Positions 560 through 23,319 of a stretch of DNA of 30,713 nucleotides are shown here, piece by piece. Under the pieces are notes generated by a model that searched no databases, was not told the DNA's origin, and saw only the letters and a list, made by a program, of their open reading frames with translations. Source of the stretch: a virus; the IMG/VR virus record IMGVR_UViG_3300046450_002104, positions 1 through 30,713 of that record. The stretch is one strand, 5' to 3'. The position numbers and the translations under genes were made by a program. Within the stretch, counting starts at the first letter, position 1; every line of letters begins with the position of its first letter.

Positions 560-853
560 TGGTGGAGGTGTTCGGCTCTGCCCCGAAGTCCTGTCTACAC
601 AAACTAGTTGAGGATGTACAAGTTTAACTTAAACTAATACTACGGACGATGCTTCTTTTCGTTATGACAATTGGTTGACTATGAAAAGAATAAAATTGTT
701 GTCAAACAATCGGCCAACAGTCTAAGCTGCGAGCTTATATTCTACTGTATTTTCGTCAGTTGAATGTTTTACATACACTTTTTAGAGAGCTAGTATGTTT
801 TCTCTCACTTGCCTCAATCTATTTTCTATACCAGTCGATCCTATTTCACCCCC
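560..853 (-). ncRNA. ssrA: Phage transfer-messenger RNA (tmRNA)
   Basis: A 294-nt one-piece tmRNA that would rescue stalled ribosomes and tag the unfinished protein. The 5' end GGGGGTG (853-847) pairs over 7 bp with CACCTCC (570-564), followed by discriminator A and an encoded CCA (562-560). The third pair is G-U, the alanyl-tRNA synthetase identity signal kept in tmRNAs. The conserved 5' block GGATCGACTGG is present. A long-range helix joins TTGAGG (817-812) to CCTCAA (613-608) and extends outward with minor irregularity. A tag frame ends in LAA and a stop at 722. A hairpin ATTGTT/AACAAT in the middle may belong to a pseudoknot. The T-arm has a 5-bp stem TTCGG/CCGAA but its loop, GGCAGAG, lacks the usual TTCRANN sequence. 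The 5' end lies 8 nt after the stop of the preceding gene and I see no dedicated promoter, so it is probably processed from a longer transcript. Confidence 0.9.
722..772 (-). other. tmRNA tag-peptide reading frame
   Basis: Inside the tmRNA an open frame on the minus strand reads VKHSTDENTVEYKLAA then TAG. The DEN core and the LAA end resemble the E. coli tag ANDENYALAA and would mark proteins for ClpXP-type proteases. The resume codon cannot be fixed from sequence alone: GTA at 772-770 is one candidate, but any in-frame codon from 778 to 761 is possible. Confidence 0.8.
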
Positions 854-2214: not shown

Positions 2215-3549
2215 TTACGCACCTTCGTAATCTAAATACTGTGCTATGTTATTGTTATACCAATCCTCTTGAAACTCTTCGGATCTATTAGTATAGAAGT
2301 TTAATCTCTCTTCTGCGAAAGCATTTATATCATAAGTACGATCTGACCATTCAGCTAACTCGGCTGCTCTCTTCTTAGACTCTTCATAATTATCAATGTG
2401 ATAAGAAATAGCATTAATCCATGAGCCCGGAGAAGTCAAATCAATCGCAAAATGTTTAGTAGAAATTTCAGAAGGGATCTGATCACACATTGTTTTATAT
2501 CCCCCATAGTTAGAGAACACAGGGATACATCTATAATGCAAAGACTCGACTACTTTGATTTCTGACTTACAAGAAGCGAAAGCGTTGTGTTCAATATAGG
2601 CCAAACTTATATCAAACAAAGCATAAAACTTAGCATAAGTTTCTAAAGGCAACGCATCAAGTATCTTTAGTCTCTTCGGATCTATGTCCTTATACAACTG
2701 TTCAATGCGTCCCTTATAAGTTTCTTCCTTATTTTCTATTTCTTTTTCTTCAAAGCTTTTATTACCATCTTCATCTTCATGGATCTCTACTTGGGTATCC
2801 TTCAAGGCCATGCCCGCAATAACAAAATAAGTGTTGGGGTACTTGTCATGGATAGCTTTCATAATAGGAGCCATACGTTTAATGTCTTCAAAATGAGAAG
2901 TAAGGCCAGCCCATCCAATAATAATCTTATCATCTGTTGGAAACCACTCTGGCAGTATCTCTTTTCTTACTTCATTTTTATTATAACACCACTGGGGTAG
3001 CCCCCAATCAAACATATTTGGAAAAATATTTACATCATCATTAAATTTTTCAAACGTATTTTTTAGTTTTGGAGTAGTGGTAGTTATACAATCAGAATGC
3101 TTTATAGATTGTAAAGACATTTTATCTTTGCCACTCTCCATCCACAAAGTTTTCATTGGGTGTGTGTTGGGCAAATTGAATTCATTATCATCTGCGTCAT
3201 GGATAATGTAAGGACGCTTCTCAGTCTTGGGCCACATTCTTGTTACCGATAAAAAATGAGAATGAAGATTGCCACACCGATGCATAACAATTACATCAGC
3301 AATCTTCACATGGTTAGGTTGCAAATTTTCAGTATAGACATAATTTGCTTCGTCAGGGAATGCCTTCCACAATGACCGTAGTGGCTCAAAGACCCTAAAG
3401 AAACTCGTACCTGTTTCTGAGGGTGTAGAAAAAACTATTGTCTTCTTATTAAGATCTAAATTTTCTGGTTGAGTAAAGTATTGCTTTATCTTATCTCTAT
3501 CTTCTTCATCTTTAAATTGTATAACCTCTTGCAATTCTTCGTTGGTCAT
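2215..3549 (-). CDS. GT-B fold glycosyltransferase
   Basis: A 444-residue protein resembling GT4-type glycosyltransferases, which move a sugar from a nucleotide-sugar donor to an acceptor. The C-terminal nucleotide-binding half begins at IIGWAG (about 210-215), continues with YFVIAGM (about 241), and has the donor-site segment CKSEIKVVESLHYRCIPVFSNYGG (about 327-350), where SExKVVE...PV matches the family's conserved K-x-x-E region. The N-terminal half has the acceptor-side Rossmann pattern (KTIVFSTP, VIVMHRCG, PYIIHDADDNEF). An insertion rich in Glu/Lys at 250-280 is unusual. A phage enzyme of this kind could glycosylate virion proteins, modified DNA bases or host surface sugars; neighbouring small virion-like genes favour the first, weakly. 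The ATG is preceded by a GGGGGA-type site. Confidence 0.8.
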   Translation of the reverse strand: MTNEELQEVIQFKDEEDRDKIKQYFTQPENLDLNKKTIVFSTPSETGTSFFRVFEPLRSLWKAFPDEANYVYTENLQPNHVKIADVIVMHRCGNLHSHFLSVTRMWPKTEKRPYIIHDADDNEFNLPNTHPMKTLWMESGKDKMSLQSIKHSDCITTTTPKLKNTFEKFNDDVNIFPNMFDWGLPQWCYNKNEVRKEILPEWFPTDDKIIIGWAGLTSHFEDIKRMAPIMKAIHDKYPNTYFVIAGMALKDTQVEIHEDEDGNKSFEEKEIENKEETYKGRIEQLYKDIDPKRLKILDALPLETYAKFYALFDISLAYIEHNAFASCKSEIKVVESLHYRCIPVFSNYGGYKTMCDQIPSEISTKHFAIDLTSPGSWINAISYHIDNYEESKKRAAELAEWSDRTYDINAFAEERLNFYTNRSEEFQEDWYNNNIAQYLDYEGA

Positions 3550-5448: not shown

Positions 5449-5928
5449 TTATTTTATTTCCTTTAATGGGCCAAAGTATTGCGCTGGCTTTTTAGTAGCC
5501 TCTTTATATTTCTCTTCTTCATAAATTTTTGTTCTTATACCCGATGAACTATAATTATGAAACCTACTTATGTAGTAAGTTTCCTTACACAAGAACCTTC
5601 CAGTTATTTTCTTTTTCATTTCTGGTGTATTATAGTCTGAGCCAAGGAAACGTATATCGGGGTTATAAAAACTTAATAGATTAACAAGCTCGGCCTCACT
5701 ACTATAAGGGGCAATTTCATCTATGTATCTGATAGACTTTAATATAATATGCCGTTCATTTAAACTCATTACAGGAATGTTTTTATCTTCTCTTTCCCAC
5801 TCTGGATTATCGTGCAACCCCACCACTAAATAGTCACAATTGTCTTTGCATTGCTTTAACATCAGAGCATAACCAGGATGATAAATGTCAAACGCTGAGG
5901 CTATAAAACCTGTCTTATTTTCCATCAT
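5449..5928 (-). CDS. Cytidylyltransferase-like (TagD fold) protein with altered HxGH motif
   Basis: A 159-residue protein with the nucleotidyltransferase alpha/beta phosphodiesterase layout: GFIASAFDIYHPGY (about 7-20), DYLVVGLHDNP (about 33-43), NERHIILKSIRYIDEI (about 57-72), FLGSDY, and the late SSSGIR motif (about 131-136) equivalent to the STS-x-[IV]-R nucleotide loop. Family members transfer CMP or AMP to small phosphorylated substrates. The signature HxGH reads HPGY, so the second catalytic His is replaced by Tyr and activity is doubtful or changed. The start, with two consecutive ATG codons, lies inside one copy of the 27-bp direct repeat. Confidence 0.72.
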   Translation of the reverse strand: MMENKTGFIASAFDIYHPGYALMLKQCKDNCDYLVVGLHDNPEWEREDKNIPVMSLNERHIILKSIRYIDEIAPYSSEAELVNLLSFYNPDIRFLGSDYNTPEMKKKITGRFLCKETYYISRFHNYSSSGIRTKIYEEEKYKEATKKPAQYFGPLKEIK

Positions 5929-8131: not shown

Positions 8132-11100
8132 TTACATAATCTTAATACTTGAATAACCCTTCTCGTTCTTATTAATGTTTATGACATTGTTAGTAATGTC
8201 CTGCATACTTTCAATGTGTGAAATGATTAATACATTTTCAAACTTACTCTTTAGATAACCAAGAAGCATGTTCATGTGATTAATATTTTCAGAGTCAAGA
8301 GTACCGAAGCCCTCGTCTATAACAAATAGATTACACGTAGGCAACAAGCTGATGTTGGATAAGGCGGATCGAATAGTAAGGGCTGTTAATGTCTTCTCCA
8401 TTCCAGACCCTAACTCTACACGGCGGCGAGAGGTACCATCATCAAGAAAAATACTTAGGTCATGGGCCTCCGTATCCACTTCAAGAAAAACCTCAAAGTT
8501 TGCAATGTTACTTAGTATCTTTCTTATCTCACTGTTAATAAGAGGAACCGCTTTATTTAGAATCATCAACGGAATACCATCGTTTCCAAACGCATCCATT
8601 AGTAAGGCGTGTGAGTTATACCTTCTCTCTATTTCTTTTAGTACCTCTATGTTTCCACCTAGGTCTGTAATCTTTTGACTGATTTGACCTAGAAAGCTAT
8701 TACCCTTTGTCAGTTCATCATTATTATTTTGAAGACCATTATCCAACCCTACAATAGTGGTATCTAATTTGCTAATCTTTTCTTGTATCTTTACATTATT
8801 AGACAACGCATCTTCATTTTGCCCATAAACTTTTTTCTCTTTGTTGTACGCTCCAAGTTTATTTCTTTGCAGCTCCAGCTGCAATTTTATGTTCTCAGAA
8901 ACCACATCTACGTTTTCGAGCCTCGTATCTGTACCACTCTTTTCCTTAGTATAACTTTCATACATCTTTTCTTCTTGAGGAAAAGATGAAGTACCTAAAA
9001 ATTTAGTGTTCTCACTTATGTTGCTCGTAGCGTCATCAAGCCATTTCTGCTCCTCAACAAGTTCCTTCTTCGCAACAAAAGCTCCCGTAAGAAACGAACA
9101 CTTCTTGCAGGTATCATTAGACTCAAACCAATCATGCTTATCCAAAATCTTTATTTGATTTTCTTTGGTGCGTGCGATTTGGCTTCTTAGCTTCCATTCA
9201 GTTTGCAGTGTTTCAGCCATTTCCTTATGACCATAGTAGGTATTCTTTCTTTCATCAAAAGGTACTTCCTCATTGAGTTTAGCTATTTCTTCTCCAAGAT
9301 AATAGGAGCGACTCATCAAGTCAACTTTTGATTTTTGATTAGTCTCCCAACTTTCTTCTAGTTTCGTGATATCTTTAGTAGAAATACCAATGTCTGCCTC
9401 AATAAAGTTTAAAGACCTCAGCCCTTTAACTACGGGATGTAATGACTTTACAAACTTTTCTTTGCTCTTCCTTTCTTTCTTTACTTTATTTTCTAGCTCC
9501 TCTCTTTCTTCATTGAGCGTTGTTATTTGCTCAACAGTTTCTTTTCGCCTCTCTTCAAACTGACTAAGAATAGAAGGATAATCATTTTGCTGATAATCTT
9601 TCAGAACGGCCTTGATAGAGGCGGTCTCATCTCTAATAGATTTCTGTAAATCATCAATGGCATGTAGTCCCAGAAATCTTGCTAGTAGATCTTTCCTATT
9701 TGTTTGCCCGTGATCAATGAAACGAGTAATATCAAACTGCTGACTAAAGGTAGTCATGGTGTGTTCTTCATAAGATCCAAGCAACGAGCGGATTGTATTC
9801 TCTGTTTCTCTTACATTGGCATCACCACTAATATTAACCTTGTCGCCATTTATAATTTGAAACAACTCAACTTTATTATTAGCTCTATTAGGATTTTTCT
9901 TATTCCTCTTGAAGTTTCTTTCAATGACATAATGAACATCATCTATTGAAAAATCTATTTCAATGAAACCTTCGTCCTTGTTCTTGTGAATGACATCAGC
10001 CACATTTCTGCCGCCAGTCCTATTGCTATTATTGAAGAACCCCTGTAGAATGGTATAAAGAATACTAGACTTTCCTGTAGCGTTGGGAGAAAAGATACCA
10101 GTCAATCCCTTGAGCTTATCAAAGTTAATAACATTGCTACCGCCATAAGAAAATACATTATCAAAAATTACTTTATGTATTTTCCATTTTCTGCCACCAT
10201 AAGTATCGTACTCATCACTAGCAGAAGTATCGTAAAAGTCCTTATGTATCGTTAACACTTCGTCTACTTCTTGTTCCGACACTGTAGGTCGCTTAGCAAA
10301 GTATTGTTTCAAGAGATCTTGTTGTGCTTTTAGGTCGGTTACATTTTCTGTCTTACCGGATAAAGATAAGTCACCAACCGCGTCCTGTACATCTACCTCA
10401 ATAAACAAACCTTCGGGCTTGTACTTGCTCCTCAAAACGGATTCTACATGCTTAGCTGTAGTTACACTATAATCTTCCGATCCTATGAGGATACGAATAT
10501 AAGGCTTAGATGGCAAATCAAACTCTATGTTATCTATGCCATCAATAGCTTCTTGATCTAGTCTAAAAGTTTTGAAGCCCCAATCATTGGCTACTTCTAC
10601 AAAAGAACATTTGCTTTCATCTAGGTTCCATATCAAAAAACCTTTCTCTACTTCTTCACCAAAATTTTGCTGAATAAGAGATCCAGCATAAGCAACCTTG
10701 ACCTTGCCGTTTTCATCTAAAATCATCGCTTGCCGCGAATGAATATCTCCCAACATTCCAAAGTCATAGTTACGAAAAATGCTCTTGTCTACATCGCTTT
10801 CAATATTATGGTGCGCGCTTGTTCGGCTACCATCCAAAGCCCCATGATACAACGCTACATACTTTTTTCCTTCTTCCCTATCAAACTCAATAGGCCACTC
10901 ATTCTTACCATCTTGTATGGCGAAAACACCATACACCAAATCGTCTGTAACGTCGCACAATCCACTCTCTGTGTAGAAGTGTATTGACTTACCTTTGTCT
11001 TGAAGTAGTCTTACAATGGGAGTGAGACTATCTAAACGGTTATGTTGGTTAATGACGCAGTCATGGTTGCCCAAGATTATGTCTAAAGGGGCCACCTCAC

Positions 11101-11302
11101 TAATGGCGTTGAGATATTGTCCCGCCAGATCTACCGCTTCGGGGGATAAATCAGTTTTATTGTGTAGCAAATCACCAGCTATAACAACTCTATCTACGTT
11201 AAAAGATTCTAAACTGGCTATCAAGTTATCTAATACTTTACTGTACTCTGTATGCCTGCGGGTCTTACGAATGTGTATGTCACTTAGGTGGGCAATAATC
11301 AT
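8132..11302 (-). CDS. Fused SbcD/gp47 nuclease and SbcC/gp46 ATPase
   Basis: A 1056-residue protein that joins two normally separate subunits of the Mre11-Rad50/SbcCD complex, which processes DNA ends for recombination-dependent replication and host DNA breakdown. Residues 1 to about 340 are the Mre11-type phosphoesterase: LSDIHI, GDLLHN, GNHDC, VALYHG and GDIHSR supply the metal ligands. From about 370 on is the Rad50-type ATPase: Walker A SPNATGKSS (about 409), long coiled coil, zinc hook CKKC (about 730), coiled coil back, signature LGSGMEKT (about 966) and Walker B LFVIDEGFGTLD (about 997). No stop or frameshift separates the halves. The ATG overlaps the primase stop (TAATG). A promoter-like sequence lies upstream at 11453-11481. 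Confidence 0.92.
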   Translation of the reverse strand: MIIAHLSDIHIRKTRRHTEYSKVLDNLIASLESFNVDRVVIAGDLLHNKTDLSPEAVDLAGQYLNAISEVAPLDIILGNHDCVINQHNRLDSLTPIVRLLQDKGKSIHFYTESGLCDVTDDLVYGVFAIQDGKNEWPIEFDREEGKKYVALYHGALDGSRTSAHHNIESDVDKSIFRNYDFGMLGDIHSRQAMILDENGKVKVAYAGSLIQQNFGEEVEKGFLIWNLDESKCSFVEVANDWGFKTFRLDQEAIDGIDNIEFDLPSKPYIRILIGSEDYSVTTAKHVESVLRSKYKPEGLFIEVDVQDAVGDLSLSGKTENVTDLKAQQDLLKQYFAKRPTVSEQEVDEVLTIHKDFYDTSASDEYDTYGGRKWKIHKVIFDNVFSYGGSNVINFDKLKGLTGIFSPNATGKSSILYTILQGFFNNSNRTGGRNVADVIHKNKDEGFIEIDFSIDDVHYVIERNFKRNKKNPNRANNKVELFQIINGDKVNISGDANVRETENTIRSLLGSYEEHTMTTFSQQFDITRFIDHGQTNRKDLLARFLGLHAIDDLQKSIRDETASIKAVLKDYQQNDYPSILSQFEERRKETVEQITTLNEEREELENKVKKERKSKEKFVKSLHPVVKGLRSLNFIEADIGISTKDITKLEESWETNQKSKVDLMSRSYYLGEEIAKLNEEVPFDERKNTYYGHKEMAETLQTEWKLRSQIARTKENQIKILDKHDWFESNDTCKKCSFLTGAFVAKKELVEEQKWLDDATSNISENTKFLGTSSFPQEEKMYESYTKEKSGTDTRLENVDVVSENIKLQLELQRNKLGAYNKEKKVYGQNEDALSNNVKIQEKISKLDTTIVGLDNGLQNNNDELTKGNSFLGQISQKITDLGGNIEVLKEIERRYNSHALLMDAFGNDGIPLMILNKAVPLINSEIRKILSNIANFEVFLEVDTEAHDLSIFLDDGTSRRRVELGSGMEKTLTALTIRSALSNISLLPTCNLFVIDEGFGTLDSENINHMNMLLGYLKSKFENVLIISHIESMQDITNNVININKNEKGYSSIKIM

Positions 11303-14209: not shown

Positions 14210-14334
14210 CAGTGCTCGTCTTCGTAGGGGTAGTCATCAACAAGACCACCCTTGCTGTGTAGGTAATATCCCCACCCAGGCCCAACTATAGTACAAAAAC
14301 CATAAACACCTAACATTGTCCACCAAAAACTCAT
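14209..14334 (-). CDS. 41-residue single-span membrane protein
   Basis: A short gene that opens at ATG 14334, overlapping the FkbM stop by four bases (ATGA), with GGGGAG 6-8 nt upstream, and closes in a TGATG junction with the next gene. The protein MSFWWTMLGVYGFCTIVGPG (then WGYYLHSKGG and an acidic tail DDYPYEDEH) has one Trp-rich hydrophobic span. The exact fit between two genes with coupled junctions on both sides makes it likely to be real. Function unknown. Confidence 0.65.
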   Translation of the reverse strand: MSFWWTMLGVYGFCTIVGPGWGYYLHSKGGLVDDYPYEDEH

Positions 14335-15158
14335 AGTGTTTCTCCCCTTTCTTGGGGTAAGCAAATCAATCTAACTTCTTTCTTGTTAGAAAAAATATTA
14401 ATGTACTCATCTTTGGAACGTATTAATGCCATTTTATTATTAAAAAGATTATATTTAGCTTCTTTAGTTACTATATCATACAAATTTAATATAGTATTAT
14501 TGTACATATTTAATAAATGAGGGTGAACTTCTAAAAATATTAAAGGCCTTATTTCTTTAAGGAAGTTAACTGCGCCTTGAAATACTCTATATTCATATCC
14601 CTCTACATCTATCTTAACGACATCAGCTATTTTATCATTTGATGTTTGACAATGAAGCCAATATCTATCTAAAGATTGCATTTTTATTTTAGGTTTTTCT
14701 TCCCAAGGAACATCCGTATTGGTCTCTACTCTATAAAAAGGATCATCTCTTTCATATAATATAGCTACTGTCTCGGCCTCAGGTTCTACAATATAATTTT
14801 TTTCATCTTCCTTCTCGCCAACCAATATATTAAATAATTTAAACGACTCATAACGACTATCGTCTTTGTTATGTTTTGCTATTTCTTTAAAAATATTATT
14901 GTTCCAAGGGGACGGCTCAAAACATCTGGTGCTCTTAGTAGCATTATCATTATTGTTAATCAAAAAAGCAAAAGAAAAAAATCCAATATGAGCACCTACG
15001 TCCCATAAATTCTTCTTATCTTTTGTTAGTTTGATAAAATTCTTTAGCTCCCAAGCTTGCCCTGTCTCCTCATCCCATTCTGTGTTAAACATATCAACAC
15101 TGCCAGACAGGCTATCGGGTAAATCTATTTGTAATTCATCTTGTATATTACATTTCAT
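14331..15158 (-). CDS. FkbM-family SAM-dependent methyltransferase
   Basis: A 275-residue methyltransferase. The SAM-binding motif I is LWDVGAHIGFFSF (about 51-63), the acidic post-I position is FEPSPWN (about 80-86), and the FkbM-specific motif DVVKIDVEGYEYRVFQGA (about 179-196) follows, with the later strand PLIFLEVHPH. FkbM enzymes O-methylate sugars or other small hydroxyl groups. In a phage it could modify glycans made by, or targeted by, the glycosyltransferase at 2215-3549, but they are not adjacent. It overlaps the adenine methyltransferase gene by four bases. It is visibly more AT-rich than its neighbours, suggesting separate acquisition. Confidence 0.85.
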   Translation of the reverse strand: MKCNIQDELQIDLPDSLSGSVDMFNTEWDEETGQAWELKNFIKLTKDKKNLWDVGAHIGFFSFAFLINNNDNATKSTRCFEPSPWNNNIFKEIAKHNKDDSRYESFKLFNILVGEKEDEKNYIVEPEAETVAILYERDDPFYRVETNTDVPWEEKPKIKMQSLDRYWLHCQTSNDKIADVVKIDVEGYEYRVFQGAVNFLKEIRPLIFLEVHPHLLNMYNNTILNLYDIVTKEAKYNLFNNKMALIRSKDEYINIFSNKKEVRLICLPQERGETL

Positions 15159-19920: not shown

Positions 19921-22900
19921 TTACATCTCTTGTTGTAACTTTAGTATTTTTTCTTCACCCACTAACGCGCCCCTGTCCCATGATATGCTTCGGCCAAAAG
20001 TATCAGCGTTTAACTTCACAATCAACACTTTGCCAGGGATCAAATCATCTTCACAATATTGTAGCTTATTGTGCCACACTCTAAAGCTACTCCCATCGTC
20101 TGCCCTTACATTCGCATACGGTTTTCCCTTCTTAGTCTTCAACATCTCTACAGTTCGTATCGTCAACCATACATGGTCATGGCTGTCGGACTCATCATCA
20201 AAGTCAGAAATGTGGGGTAGTCCCATGTCCTTCACAATTCCACATACCTCTTGCCATTTAGCTATGTTTTCCGTAACCCTAAAACCTAAATGCGCCAACT
20301 CCTTATTAACTATCTCTGTTTCAGTATAGTCATCTTCAGTATTAATATCAAAGGCCTCTAACACCTTATCAATGTATCGGCCACTTATCAACGCAAAAAA
20401 CTTAAGCTCTTCATCGTCCCATAACTTTACACACACCTTCTTCAAGTCTCGTTTAGGCATCTTGGATAAGGCATAATAAACCTCAGTCAACGCCACTAAT
20501 GATTTTCTATTAAACTCTTTTCCACAAAATTGCAATTCGTCAAACATCCCCAAAGAAATAAGCATCTTTAGATCGTTTTCAGAAACCATCTTGAACTCAA
20601 AGTTATCTCTCATAAACTCTGTATAGTCTAACCAACCGGACTCGCTAGGATAATGTTTCTTTATCTTATTCAATACGGCCTTACCCAAGCCTTTAACTCC
20701 CATCAGTCCTACCATAAACTCATCTTGTGTAACTTTGAAATCTAATGAAAAGTTATTTATGTTACCCAAAGTTATCGTTGGACTATCTAACAAGTCTCTA
20801 GCCATAGAAAGACACAACGCTATTTCGTCATGGTCATCTGCCGAATGATTACACAGTACTTCAATAAACTCGGCCGGATACTTTGCCTTGAAATAACTTG
20901 TCCAATACGCCAAGATACTATAACTAATAGCATGAGACTTATTGAATAGATATCCTGCATTTTCTATCAGCTTGCCTGCAACCTTTTTAGTTTCTTCCAT
21001 CGTCAAGATAAGCTTATTGGGATCACTATACAAGTGTTCTTGCAAATAATCATTACACTTCTTCTGATCTAATGACTCGGCTGTTTTACGAAGAATGTCA
21101 CCCTCACCAAAACTTAGCCCCAACATACTGAACATCTGAATAAATTGCTCTTGGTAAATCATAATACCTTGAGTCGGCTCCAGTATCTCTTCAAACATAG
21201 GATGATGTTGATTGGCTGGATCTTCATTACCATTCTTTCGCCTGATGAATGCATCCAATGCGCCCATCTTGATAACACCAGGTCGATAGATGGCATTCAC
21301 AGCAGCGATGTCTTCTATAGTTTTTGGTTTTGCTTGTTGCAATACTCTTGTAATGTTTGATCCTGCGAACTGAAACACTCCAAAGGTTTGGCCTTCGCAC
21401 AATAACTGAAACGCTTTATCGTGGTGGACCTGCTCTTCTTCCGATAGCTCATCTCTATCTAATGGCATATTATACAGGTCGGGTATTTTCATTCCTACTT
21501 TATCCATCACATCTTTCAGTACCGACAAAGTAGAAATACCCAACATATCAATCTTGAGAAACTTCATCTTTGCTAGTTCGTCTATCTGCCACTCTGTAAC
21601 CAATACATCATCCTTGGTCTTCCTCAATGGCATCATGTCATACAATGGACTAGAAGAAATAATAACTCCACCAGCTGCAATAGTTTGGTTCCTAGCGTTT
21701 CCATTCAACACATCAATAGTCTCAACAAAGTTAGCCGCCGCATCGGCATCCATATCTTGAACAAACTTTCTCACCTCTGGCTTATCATTCATTATTTCAC
21801 TGAATGATGCCATGTCTTTATTCAGAGAGATGTGCCCTGATATCGTCTTGGCTATTTTGTTGGTTTCTTGGAAAGGTAGTTCTTTATCTTTCGCCAGATC
21901 ACGAAACAAAGTATTAGCGGAGTAACGGGCGTAAGCGCAAACAGAAGCAATGTTAGCATCACCCCACTTGTTCGCGACATATTCTTTAACCTTTTCTCTA
22001 TCTTTGTCCGCAAAGTCGTTATCAATATCAGGCTCCTTAATCCTGGTAGGATTCATAAACCTCTCAAAGAAGAGATTGTATTTTATAGGATTCAAATGAG
22101 TTATGCCTAACAGCCAACACAATAACGCGCCGCTAGCACTACCGCGGCCGGGAGACATTAGGATTTCATTATCATAAGCAAACTTACAGAAGTCTTGAGT
22201 GATAAGGAAATAATCTACGTACCCTTTATCATCTACAAGATCTAACTCTTTTTTCAACGCGGCTGTGTATTCGGGAATGTCTTCTTCTTTTATTTGTCCC
22301 GCCTCAAGCTTTTGGTTCATGCCCTTCTTCAGTTGATGAACAATGTACTCTCTATTATTGTTATAACCTTTTGGTGTTTCAAACTTAGGCTCTTTCAAAG
22401 TCTCCATGTCAAGCTTAGCGTTACATCTTGTCGCAATGTGTTTGGTGCTCTCTATGGCTTCTTCTAGATACTCATCCGCAATCAAGTCTCCATAACCATT
22501 ATCATACCACAACGCACGCATTTCATCTTCACTGGCAAGATACAAAGTATGTACTCCAGCTTCATCAAACTTGCCGTCAGTATTCATTCTCCATAAGAAG
22601 TCATGTACTTTGTCATGTTGCTTTAATACCACATGAACATCATTAGCTAACACGCACCTTACATTAGTATACTTCTTACGAAACAACTCTATCAAGGCTA
22701 CATTATAATCTTTTTGTATATCCAAATCATGCGGATGCAATTCAATGAACAAGTTATCTTCGCCAAAGATTCCTAACATCTTATCAAAAAAAGCTGTCAT
22801 CTTGTCAGTCTGCTTGGCTTGTAAATACCTTGCCATATTGCTAATAACGCAAGTTGTTGTGGCAATTATTCCTTCAGAATGTTTCTCTAATAGATCTAAA

Positions 22901-23319
22901 TCTATTCGGGGTTTCCCATAATATCCCTGAGTATTTGCATAATAGTTCAAACGAAACAAGTTTCTCAACCCGATGTCAGTCTCTGCCAACAACAAAAGAT
23001 GTGGCGACCTTAGCCTCAACTTATTCTTTTCTCGTATTTCTGTTGCTGTTAGCCCCTCCTTGTCTTTCTCAGGCAATCCTCGCTGATGCATATCTTCTAC
23101 ACAATACATCTCGCAACCAAGTATTGGCTTCACTCCCGCCTTATTCATCTCAGTATAAAACTCAACCATACCGGCCATCGTGCCGTGATCAGTTATGGCT
23201 GCCGCCTCCATCCCAAGCTCTGCACATCTCTCCGCATAATCTTTTGCCTTACCAACTCCATCTAACATTGAATAAGTTGTATGCAAATGCAAATGCGTAA
23301 ATGTTTCTACCTTCGACAT
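19921..23319 (-). CDS. dnaE: DNA polymerase III alpha subunit (C-family, DnaE)
   Basis: An 1132-residue replicative polymerase, close to the length of bacterial DnaE (about 1160). The N-terminal PHP domain has THLHLHTTYSMLDG, ITDHGTM, GCEMYC, and later ELHPHDLD and NDVH, which look like an intact metal site and could proofread. The palm has PGRGSASGALLCWLLGIT (about 385-402), the catalytic PDIDNDF (about 427-433) and KIDMLGIST (about 590), giving the three Asp. The finger/helical part has NKSHAISYSILAYWTSYFKAKYP, and the C-terminal 150 residues include an OB-like stretch (VWLTIRTVEMLKTKKGKPYANVRADDG). T4-type phages carry family B polymerase instead, so this is a replisome exchange. No beta clamp or epsilon subunit is seen in the window. 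Confidence 0.95.
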   Translation of the reverse strand: MSKVETFTHLHLHTTYSMLDGVGKAKDYAERCAELGMEAAAITDHGTMAGMVEFYTEMNKAGVKPILGCEMYCVEDMHQRGLPEKDKEGLTATEIREKNKLRLRSPHLLLLAETDIGLRNLFRLNYYANTQGYYGKPRIDLDLLEKHSEGIIATTTCVISNMARYLQAKQTDKMTAFFDKMLGIFGEDNLFIELHPHDLDIQKDYNVALIELFRKKYTNVRCVLANDVHVVLKQHDKVHDFLWRMNTDGKFDEAGVHTLYLASEDEMRALWYDNGYGDLIADEYLEEAIESTKHIATRCNAKLDMETLKEPKFETPKGYNNNREYIVHQLKKGMNQKLEAGQIKEEDIPEYTAALKKELDLVDDKGYVDYFLITQDFCKFAYDNEILMSPGRGSASGALLCWLLGITHLNPIKYNLFFERFMNPTRIKEPDIDNDFADKDREKVKEYVANKWGDANIASVCAYARYSANTLFRDLAKDKELPFQETNKIAKTISGHISLNKDMASFSEIMNDKPEVRKFVQDMDADAAANFVETIDVLNGNARNQTIAAGGVIISSSPLYDMMPLRKTKDDVLVTEWQIDELAKMKFLKIDMLGISTLSVLKDVMDKVGMKIPDLYNMPLDRDELSEEEQVHHDKAFQLLCEGQTFGVFQFAGSNITRVLQQAKPKTIEDIAAVNAIYRPGVIKMGALDAFIRRKNGNEDPANQHHPMFEEILEPTQGIMIYQEQFIQMFSMLGLSFGEGDILRKTAESLDQKKCNDYLQEHLYSDPNKLILTMEETKKVAGKLIENAGYLFNKSHAISYSILAYWTSYFKAKYPAEFIEVLCNHSADDHDEIALCLSMARDLLDSPTITLGNINNFSLDFKVTQDEFMVGLMGVKGLGKAVLNKIKKHYPSESGWLDYTEFMRDNFEFKMVSENDLKMLISLGMFDELQFCGKEFNRKSLVALTEVYYALSKMPKRDLKKVCVKLWDDEELKFFALISGRYIDKVLEAFDINTEDDYTETEIVNKELAHLGFRVTENIAKWQEVCGIVKDMGLPHISDFDDESDSHDHVWLTIRTVEMLKTKKGKPYANVRADDGSSFRVWHNKLQYCEDDLIPGKVLIVKLNADTFGRSISWDRGALVGEEKILKLQQEM

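Follow-up and report, generated by a model that had tools for sequence, protein, structure and literature searches.

The elbow of tRNA and of most tmRNAs is held by two contacts, G18 with pseudouridine55 and G19 with C56. tmRNA is charged by alanyl-tRNA synthetase (AlaRS) by way of a G3-U70 pair and bound at its elbow by SmpB; it goes into ribosomes that have stalled and appends a tag (PMC3968760). Alongside the standard one-piece form (RF00023) there is an alphaproteobacterial two-piece form (RF01849), the gene of which is circularly permuted and the product of which consists of two RNA pieces; its Rfam consensus (alpha_tmRNA) has an elbow made of the D-loop AUAGGAUCGAC and the T-loop GGCgGUA, i.e. 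of the GGCRGUA type. A change of the T-loop at this position was noted in 2005 for Caulobacter and a mitochondrion, the part of that paper available for comparison making no mention of the D-loop partner (PMC1168896). Phages also carry tmRNA, in 402 of 18,146 phage genomes (~2%), and among marine phages the two-piece form is frequent (PMC9004378). The figure matches the remark in a preliminary description of the DNA studied here that only a minority of phages carry one. The 2025 tmRNA database holds 79 unique phage sequences among 97,179 (PMC11915505). The presence of a tmRNA in a phage is not new, and what is unusual about the present locus is the type of its elbow and the apparent exchange of parts among its relatives.

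The window, by which is meant the whole stretch of DNA analysed, a virus record of 30,713 bases, carries a genuine tmRNA. On its minus strand, positions 560–853 (5' end at 853, 3' CCA at 560–562) are a full-length one-piece tmRNA gene of a bacterial virus, as the preliminary description had proposed without giving the strand. The Infernal search with RF00023 which that description had suggested proved positive: with positions 500–920 searched alone, the match reaches 54.4 bits against a cut-off of 47 (E 8.6e-21), covers model positions 1–374 untruncated and has the parts in standard order. The score is a modest one. The parts, from the 5' end of the RNA, are as follows.

560–853, minus strand: complete gene for a one-piece tmRNA (ssrA), 294 nt with the CCA counted; RF00023 match, with homologues in the corresponding position of related contigs
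847–853, minus strand: 5' strand of the acceptor stem, GGGGGUG, pairing with 564–570
834–843, minus strand: D-loop UAGGAUCGAC, of the A18 type, with the A18-equivalent at 842 and the G19-equivalent at 841
808–833, minus strand: 5' strand of helix 2, containing UUGAGG (812–817), pairing with 591–622
771–806, minus strand: pseudoknot 1, GAGAG (802–806) with CUCUC (785–789) and ACAUAC (793–798) with GUAUGU (771–776)
722–757, minus strand: tag frame GAC GAA AAU ACA GUA GAA UAU AAG CUC GCA GCU UAG, giving DENTVEYKLAA and a stop, from the sequence
591–622, minus strand: 3' strand of helix 2, containing CCUCAA (608–613), pairing with 808–833
571–587, minus strand: T arm UUCGG-GGCAGAG-CCGAA, loop 576–582, with the G55-equivalent at 581, read directly
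560–570, minus strand: 3' strand of the acceptor stem CACCUCC (564–570), discriminator A (563) and CCA (560–562), from direct reading and the RF00023 alignment

The elements on which the preliminary description had relied are all present, namely the 7-bp acceptor stem with its third pair G-U (read directly), the encoded CCA, the block GGATCGACTGG in the D-loop region (831–841), the long-range helix TTGAGG/CCTCAA (812–817 with 608–613) and a tag frame ending in LAA, with its stop TAG at 722–724. In other words, the locus shares with the standard RF00023 tmRNA its gene order, the G3-U70 acceptor pair that marks alanine identity, with discriminator A and CCA, helix 2, pseudoknot 1 and a tag frame with a stop and a proteolysis-type C-terminus. 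It differs from that tmRNA in being shorter (294 nt), in having UAGG rather than GG in the D-loop and in its T-loop, where the usual UUCRANN with its G18-U55 and G19-C56 contacts is replaced by GGCAGAG together with A18 and G19. The resume codon probably differs too, the RF00023 alignment placing it at GAC; the homologous tag of a relative (L034) is likewise read from D by ARAGORN (DETQEYRLAA), and the tag could alternatively begin one or two codons upstream, at ACU or UCA. Helix 2 has a duplex energy of −14.4 kcal/mol against a shuffle mean of −9.0 (sd 2.7), which taken alone is only moderately above shuffles, 79 of 2000 being equally good, and the helix is aligned in the RF00023 match. The minimum-energy fold of the whole RNA is ordinary (z −1.4). 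The stems of pseudoknot 1 are preserved with other letters in four relatives (L033, L043, L027 and L050; read from the alignment). Some 10 nt separate the start of the gene from the stop codon of the ORF that precedes it (862–1212).

A tmRNA of this kind is easily overlooked. A cmscan of the whole window with the Rfam library at default filters misses it, and ARAGORN, the second search that the preliminary description had suggested, came back negative. Among the relatives, ARAGORN finds four with a UUC T-loop (L026, L032, L034 and L039), none with an odd T-loop, and also misses two with UUC (L049 and L050); from this comparison, its failure in the window is probably due in part to the T-loop. 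An RF00023 profile search of contigs misses the window's own tmRNA as well, such that blanks for other phage contigs carry no weight. Phage tmRNAs are probably undercounted, since this elbow can escape both ARAGORN and filtered Rfam searches.

Related IMG/VR contigs were found by way of the DNA polymerase, the SbcCD-like protein and the glycosyltransferase encoded at 2215–3549. In those reaching far enough, a tmRNA lies downstream of the same glycosyltransferase gene, and these syntenic homologues score 40.8–105.5 bits, most of them above the cut-off and L049 below it. Across 12 phage homologues, acceptor pairs 1, 2, 3 and 7 are invariant, with G3-U70 in every one, and pairs 4, 5 and 6 occur as two, three and three pair types without a broken pair; the T stem is also preserved in diverged relatives. 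The tags (DENTVEYKLAA, DETVEYKMAA, DEELEYKMAA, AEETTEYALAA, AEEQTEYALAA and DETQEYRLAA) are 10–11 codons long, change in length by whole codons only and end in LAA or MAA in 13 of the 13 homologues read. Such compensation in the acceptor and such whole-codon changes in the tag point to selection rather than chance, acting to keep both the tmRNA and its tag functional. Less neat fits are L043, with one extra D-loop base and an elbow that can be read either way, and L027, with a 6-bp T stem. Neither the neighbouring 116-aa protein nor an exact search with the T-arm DNA led to close relatives. Among isolate phages (INPHARED) there was no tmRNA similar in sequence to the tmRNA DNA of the window, L033 or L026, that of L050 gave short T-arm matches only, and there was no close relative by DNA polymerase (~30% identity) or helicase (best 37%).

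As a whole, these data are best explained by a functional phage tmRNA encoded in the window, a reading to which we assign a probability of about 0.85; judging from the sequence, the phage probably makes use of the SmpB and AlaRS of its host. A search of 16 related phage contigs, all of them fragments, revealed no smpB, and therefore the host SmpB would probably serve. The RNA would be transcribed together with the neighbouring genes, trimmed by host tRNA-processing enzymes, charged by the host alanyl-tRNA synthetase and bound by host SmpB, after which, in the infected cell, it would rescue ribosomes stuck on mRNAs that are broken or lack a stop codon. The tag added would be A-DENTVEYKLAA, presumably a degradation tag of the ClpXP type.

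The alternative that survives best is compatible with such ordinary rescue, and holds that the phage tag is a tool by which specific proteins, of the host or of the phage itself, are labelled for degradation or directed to a different protease. The encoded tag does vary among phages and whole tag cassettes are exchanged, as would suit such a tool, but the general LAA/MAA end on all tags points to ordinary degradation, and we consider this alternative rather unlikely. A tag-less tmRNA-like RNA of mycobacteriophage DS6A has been reported as a decoy (PMC11915505), that is, an RNA that competes for SmpB and AlaRS and so blocks host trans-translation. This precedent, and the lack of a phage smpB in the related contigs searched, would fit a similar role here; a decoy, however, has no need of a tag frame, yet one ending in LAA or MAA is found in all 13 homologues read, which makes a decoy improbable. 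Less probable again is a decaying or non-functional copy, for example the remnant of a host-captured attachment site, for which the odd T-loop, the modest score and the ARAGORN miss might be cited, but the gene is whole and not a 3' fragment, the odd T-loop is matched by an odd D-loop in a combination common in bacteria, and the acceptor stem, G3-U70, the T stem and the tag frame are kept in diverged relatives through compensatory or whole-codon changes. Lastly, the agreement of the elbow letters with the alpha_tmRNA consensus might point to a permuted tmRNA in two pieces, as in Alphaproteobacteria, but as a gene form this is refuted. The order is the standard one of 5' acceptor, body and 3' acceptor, all on a single strand, and the 7-bp ends of the 294 nt match each other. 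The permuted model RF04321 fits only in two separate halves, which score 24.1 and 21.6 bits, below the cut-off of 47, and stand in the wrong order. One-piece tmRNAs of Elusimicrobiota, Omnitrophota and Bacillota, moreover, have the same elbow, which therefore does not imply permutation.

In the working one-piece tmRNA favoured here, the elbow brings together the D-loop UAGGAUCGAC and the T-loop GGCAGAG, i.e. A18, G19, G55 and C56, a feature that the preliminary description did not contain. The elbow that is the consensus of the two-piece alphaproteobacterial tmRNA is thus found in an unpermuted, one-piece gene: the D-loop, a T-loop of the GGCRGUA type and an acceptor of the form GGGGGYG are common to both, the window differing in the last two bases of the T-loop. 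With the loss of U55 the site of pseudouridine 55 is gone, and U54 is also lost in the window. The A18/G55 pair, standing in place of the G18-pseudouridine55 contact, would allow the elbow to form without a pseudouridine at 55, and the elbow of the window may be independent of modifications at both 54 and 55.

The D-loop pattern UAGGNUCGAYUGG alone occurs in at least 120 viral stretches, of which 116 were resolved among the matches listed; all 116 of these resolved viral tmRNAs, among the matches listed, are permuted and have an NGCR T-loop, none having UUC. In this regard the one-piece gene of the window differs from the viral tmRNAs with this elbow among the listed matches of the D-loop scan, although it resembles known phage tmRNAs, for example the two-piece tmRNA of Melnitz and those of other marine phages, in being phage-borne, complete and tagged (PMC9004378). 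When 84,980 genomes were scanned with a one-piece pattern, some 10 of the 46 bacterial matches proved to be chance or incomplete, and the other ~36, from Elusimicrobiota, Bacillota and Omnitrophota, are real one-piece tmRNAs that share this elbow. The elbow is therefore not tied to the two-piece form, and the usual UUCRANN elbow is common but not obligatory in tmRNA, whole bacterial groups using the alternative. With some tmRNAs of these three phyla, which have a UAGG D-loop and an NGCR T-loop, the window shares the one-piece order and the elbow pairing; it differs in that the bacterial genes are chromosomal, ~340–400 nt long and mostly have UGCRANU as T-loop. The six viral loci L177–L182, which also matched the one-piece pattern, were rejected, as on reading they resemble the 3' half of a permuted gene, the upstream match being apparently due to chance. 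In these loci the apparent 3' acceptor half of a permuted tmRNA has the T-loop UGCAAUU and lies directly after a short ORF.

The relation between positions 18 and 55 was read in a sample drawn independently of the loops, from tmRNAs found with Rfam models in samples of four phyla and the class Alphaproteobacteria (loci L241–L469). Among the 219 readable bacterial tmRNAs of these five groups, the combination is A18/G55 in 77 and G18/U55 in 142, mixed combinations being absent; the coupling is meaningful and the proportions are meaningless, three of the sampled phyla having been picked for their alternative elbow. The 77 come from Elusimicrobiota (21), Bacillota (6), Omnitrophota (20) and Alphaproteobacteria (30), and include two (L295 and L431) that were read by hand, the script having picked another stem register, as it did in seven Bacillota sequences in all, with the T-loop reading shifted by one base; ten further loci of the five samples were unreadable by the script and lie outside the 219. 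A quick tree built from the SmpB of 103 of these genomes shows at least six switches of the elbow state, with only three independent pairs on well-supported branches. In the same 103 genomes no SmpB residue tracks the elbow alike in Elusimicrobiota, Omnitrophota and Pseudomonadota, and hence the elbow type offers no usable prediction of the host and the RNA itself probably compensates for the swap. The coupled change gives comparative support for a contact between D-loop and T-loop in tmRNA, and constitutes a natural test of the importance of pseudouridine 55 in trans-translation. In the open papers searched we found no description of a one-piece phage tmRNA with an A18/G55 elbow or of a strict 18–55 coupling; the latter may be new.

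Related phages appear, from comparison of their sequences, to exchange parts of the tmRNA gene, a matter on which the preliminary description was also silent. The nearest sister of the window, L039, has a glycosyltransferase 93% identical and DNA ~81% identical over 6 kb, yet its tmRNA body is only 57% identical and its elbow is of the normal type; identity between the two is 80–90% upstream, falls to 52–69% across approximately 500–1200 and is mostly higher beyond. L027 and L026 have tmRNA bodies that are 94% identical, with 5' and 3' ends only 36% and 32% identical. The ends of L027 are nearer to those of L033 (60% and 57%), such that L027 is a mosaic of an A18/G55 elbow on an L026-type body. 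The trees of the two genes disagree: that of the glycosyltransferase groups the window with L039 and L032, L033 with L043, and L026 with L027 and L030, whereas that of the tmRNA body, with moderate support, sets the window, L030, L033 and L043 against L039, L032, L026 and L027. These patterns are most simply read as the result of homologous exchange, which in L027 would have involved the middle section, flanked by conserved blocks, and otherwise entire alleles. Mechanistically, homologous recombination at the conserved blocks GGCAAG and CTTGTATATC may swap tmRNA alleles or, in some cases, just the stretch with the tag and pseudoknots, which then passes from one elbow type to the other. Nor did the open papers searched yield a description of tmRNA mosaics in phages. 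Exchange of the tag cassette among phages makes a function of the phage tag in its own right testable.

Drawing the two lines of evidence together, we put forward, at roughly even odds, that the tmRNA elbow comes in two exchangeable versions, G18-U55 and A18-G55, with both positions changing together in phages as well as in bacteria that are not related to one another. Both versions would circulate in this group of phages, and recombination would move the cassette of tag and pseudoknots from one to the other, giving rise to one-piece tmRNAs with a tRNA domain of the two-piece type. An elbow lacking U55 would, on this proposal, not need pseudouridine 55.

Elsewhere in the window, a single frame of 1056 aa at 8132–11302 (minus strand) joins an SbcD-like N-terminus, read from the sequence, to an SbcC-like part (PHROG 77). 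In many phages the SbcD-like and SbcC-like parts are two proteins (gp47 and gp46). The DNA polymerase encoded at 19921–23319 (minus strand) is a phage enzyme of the bacterial PolIII alpha (DnaE) type, ~30% identical to that of any isolate phage listed. Genes for a glycosyltransferase, a cytidylyltransferase-like protein and an FkbM methyltransferase (2215–3549, 5449–5928 and 14331–15158, minus strand) lie in one stretch, possibly for the modification of glycans. The L033 homologue of this glycosyltransferase gene (G029:C1:12318-13643) contains one in-frame TAA.
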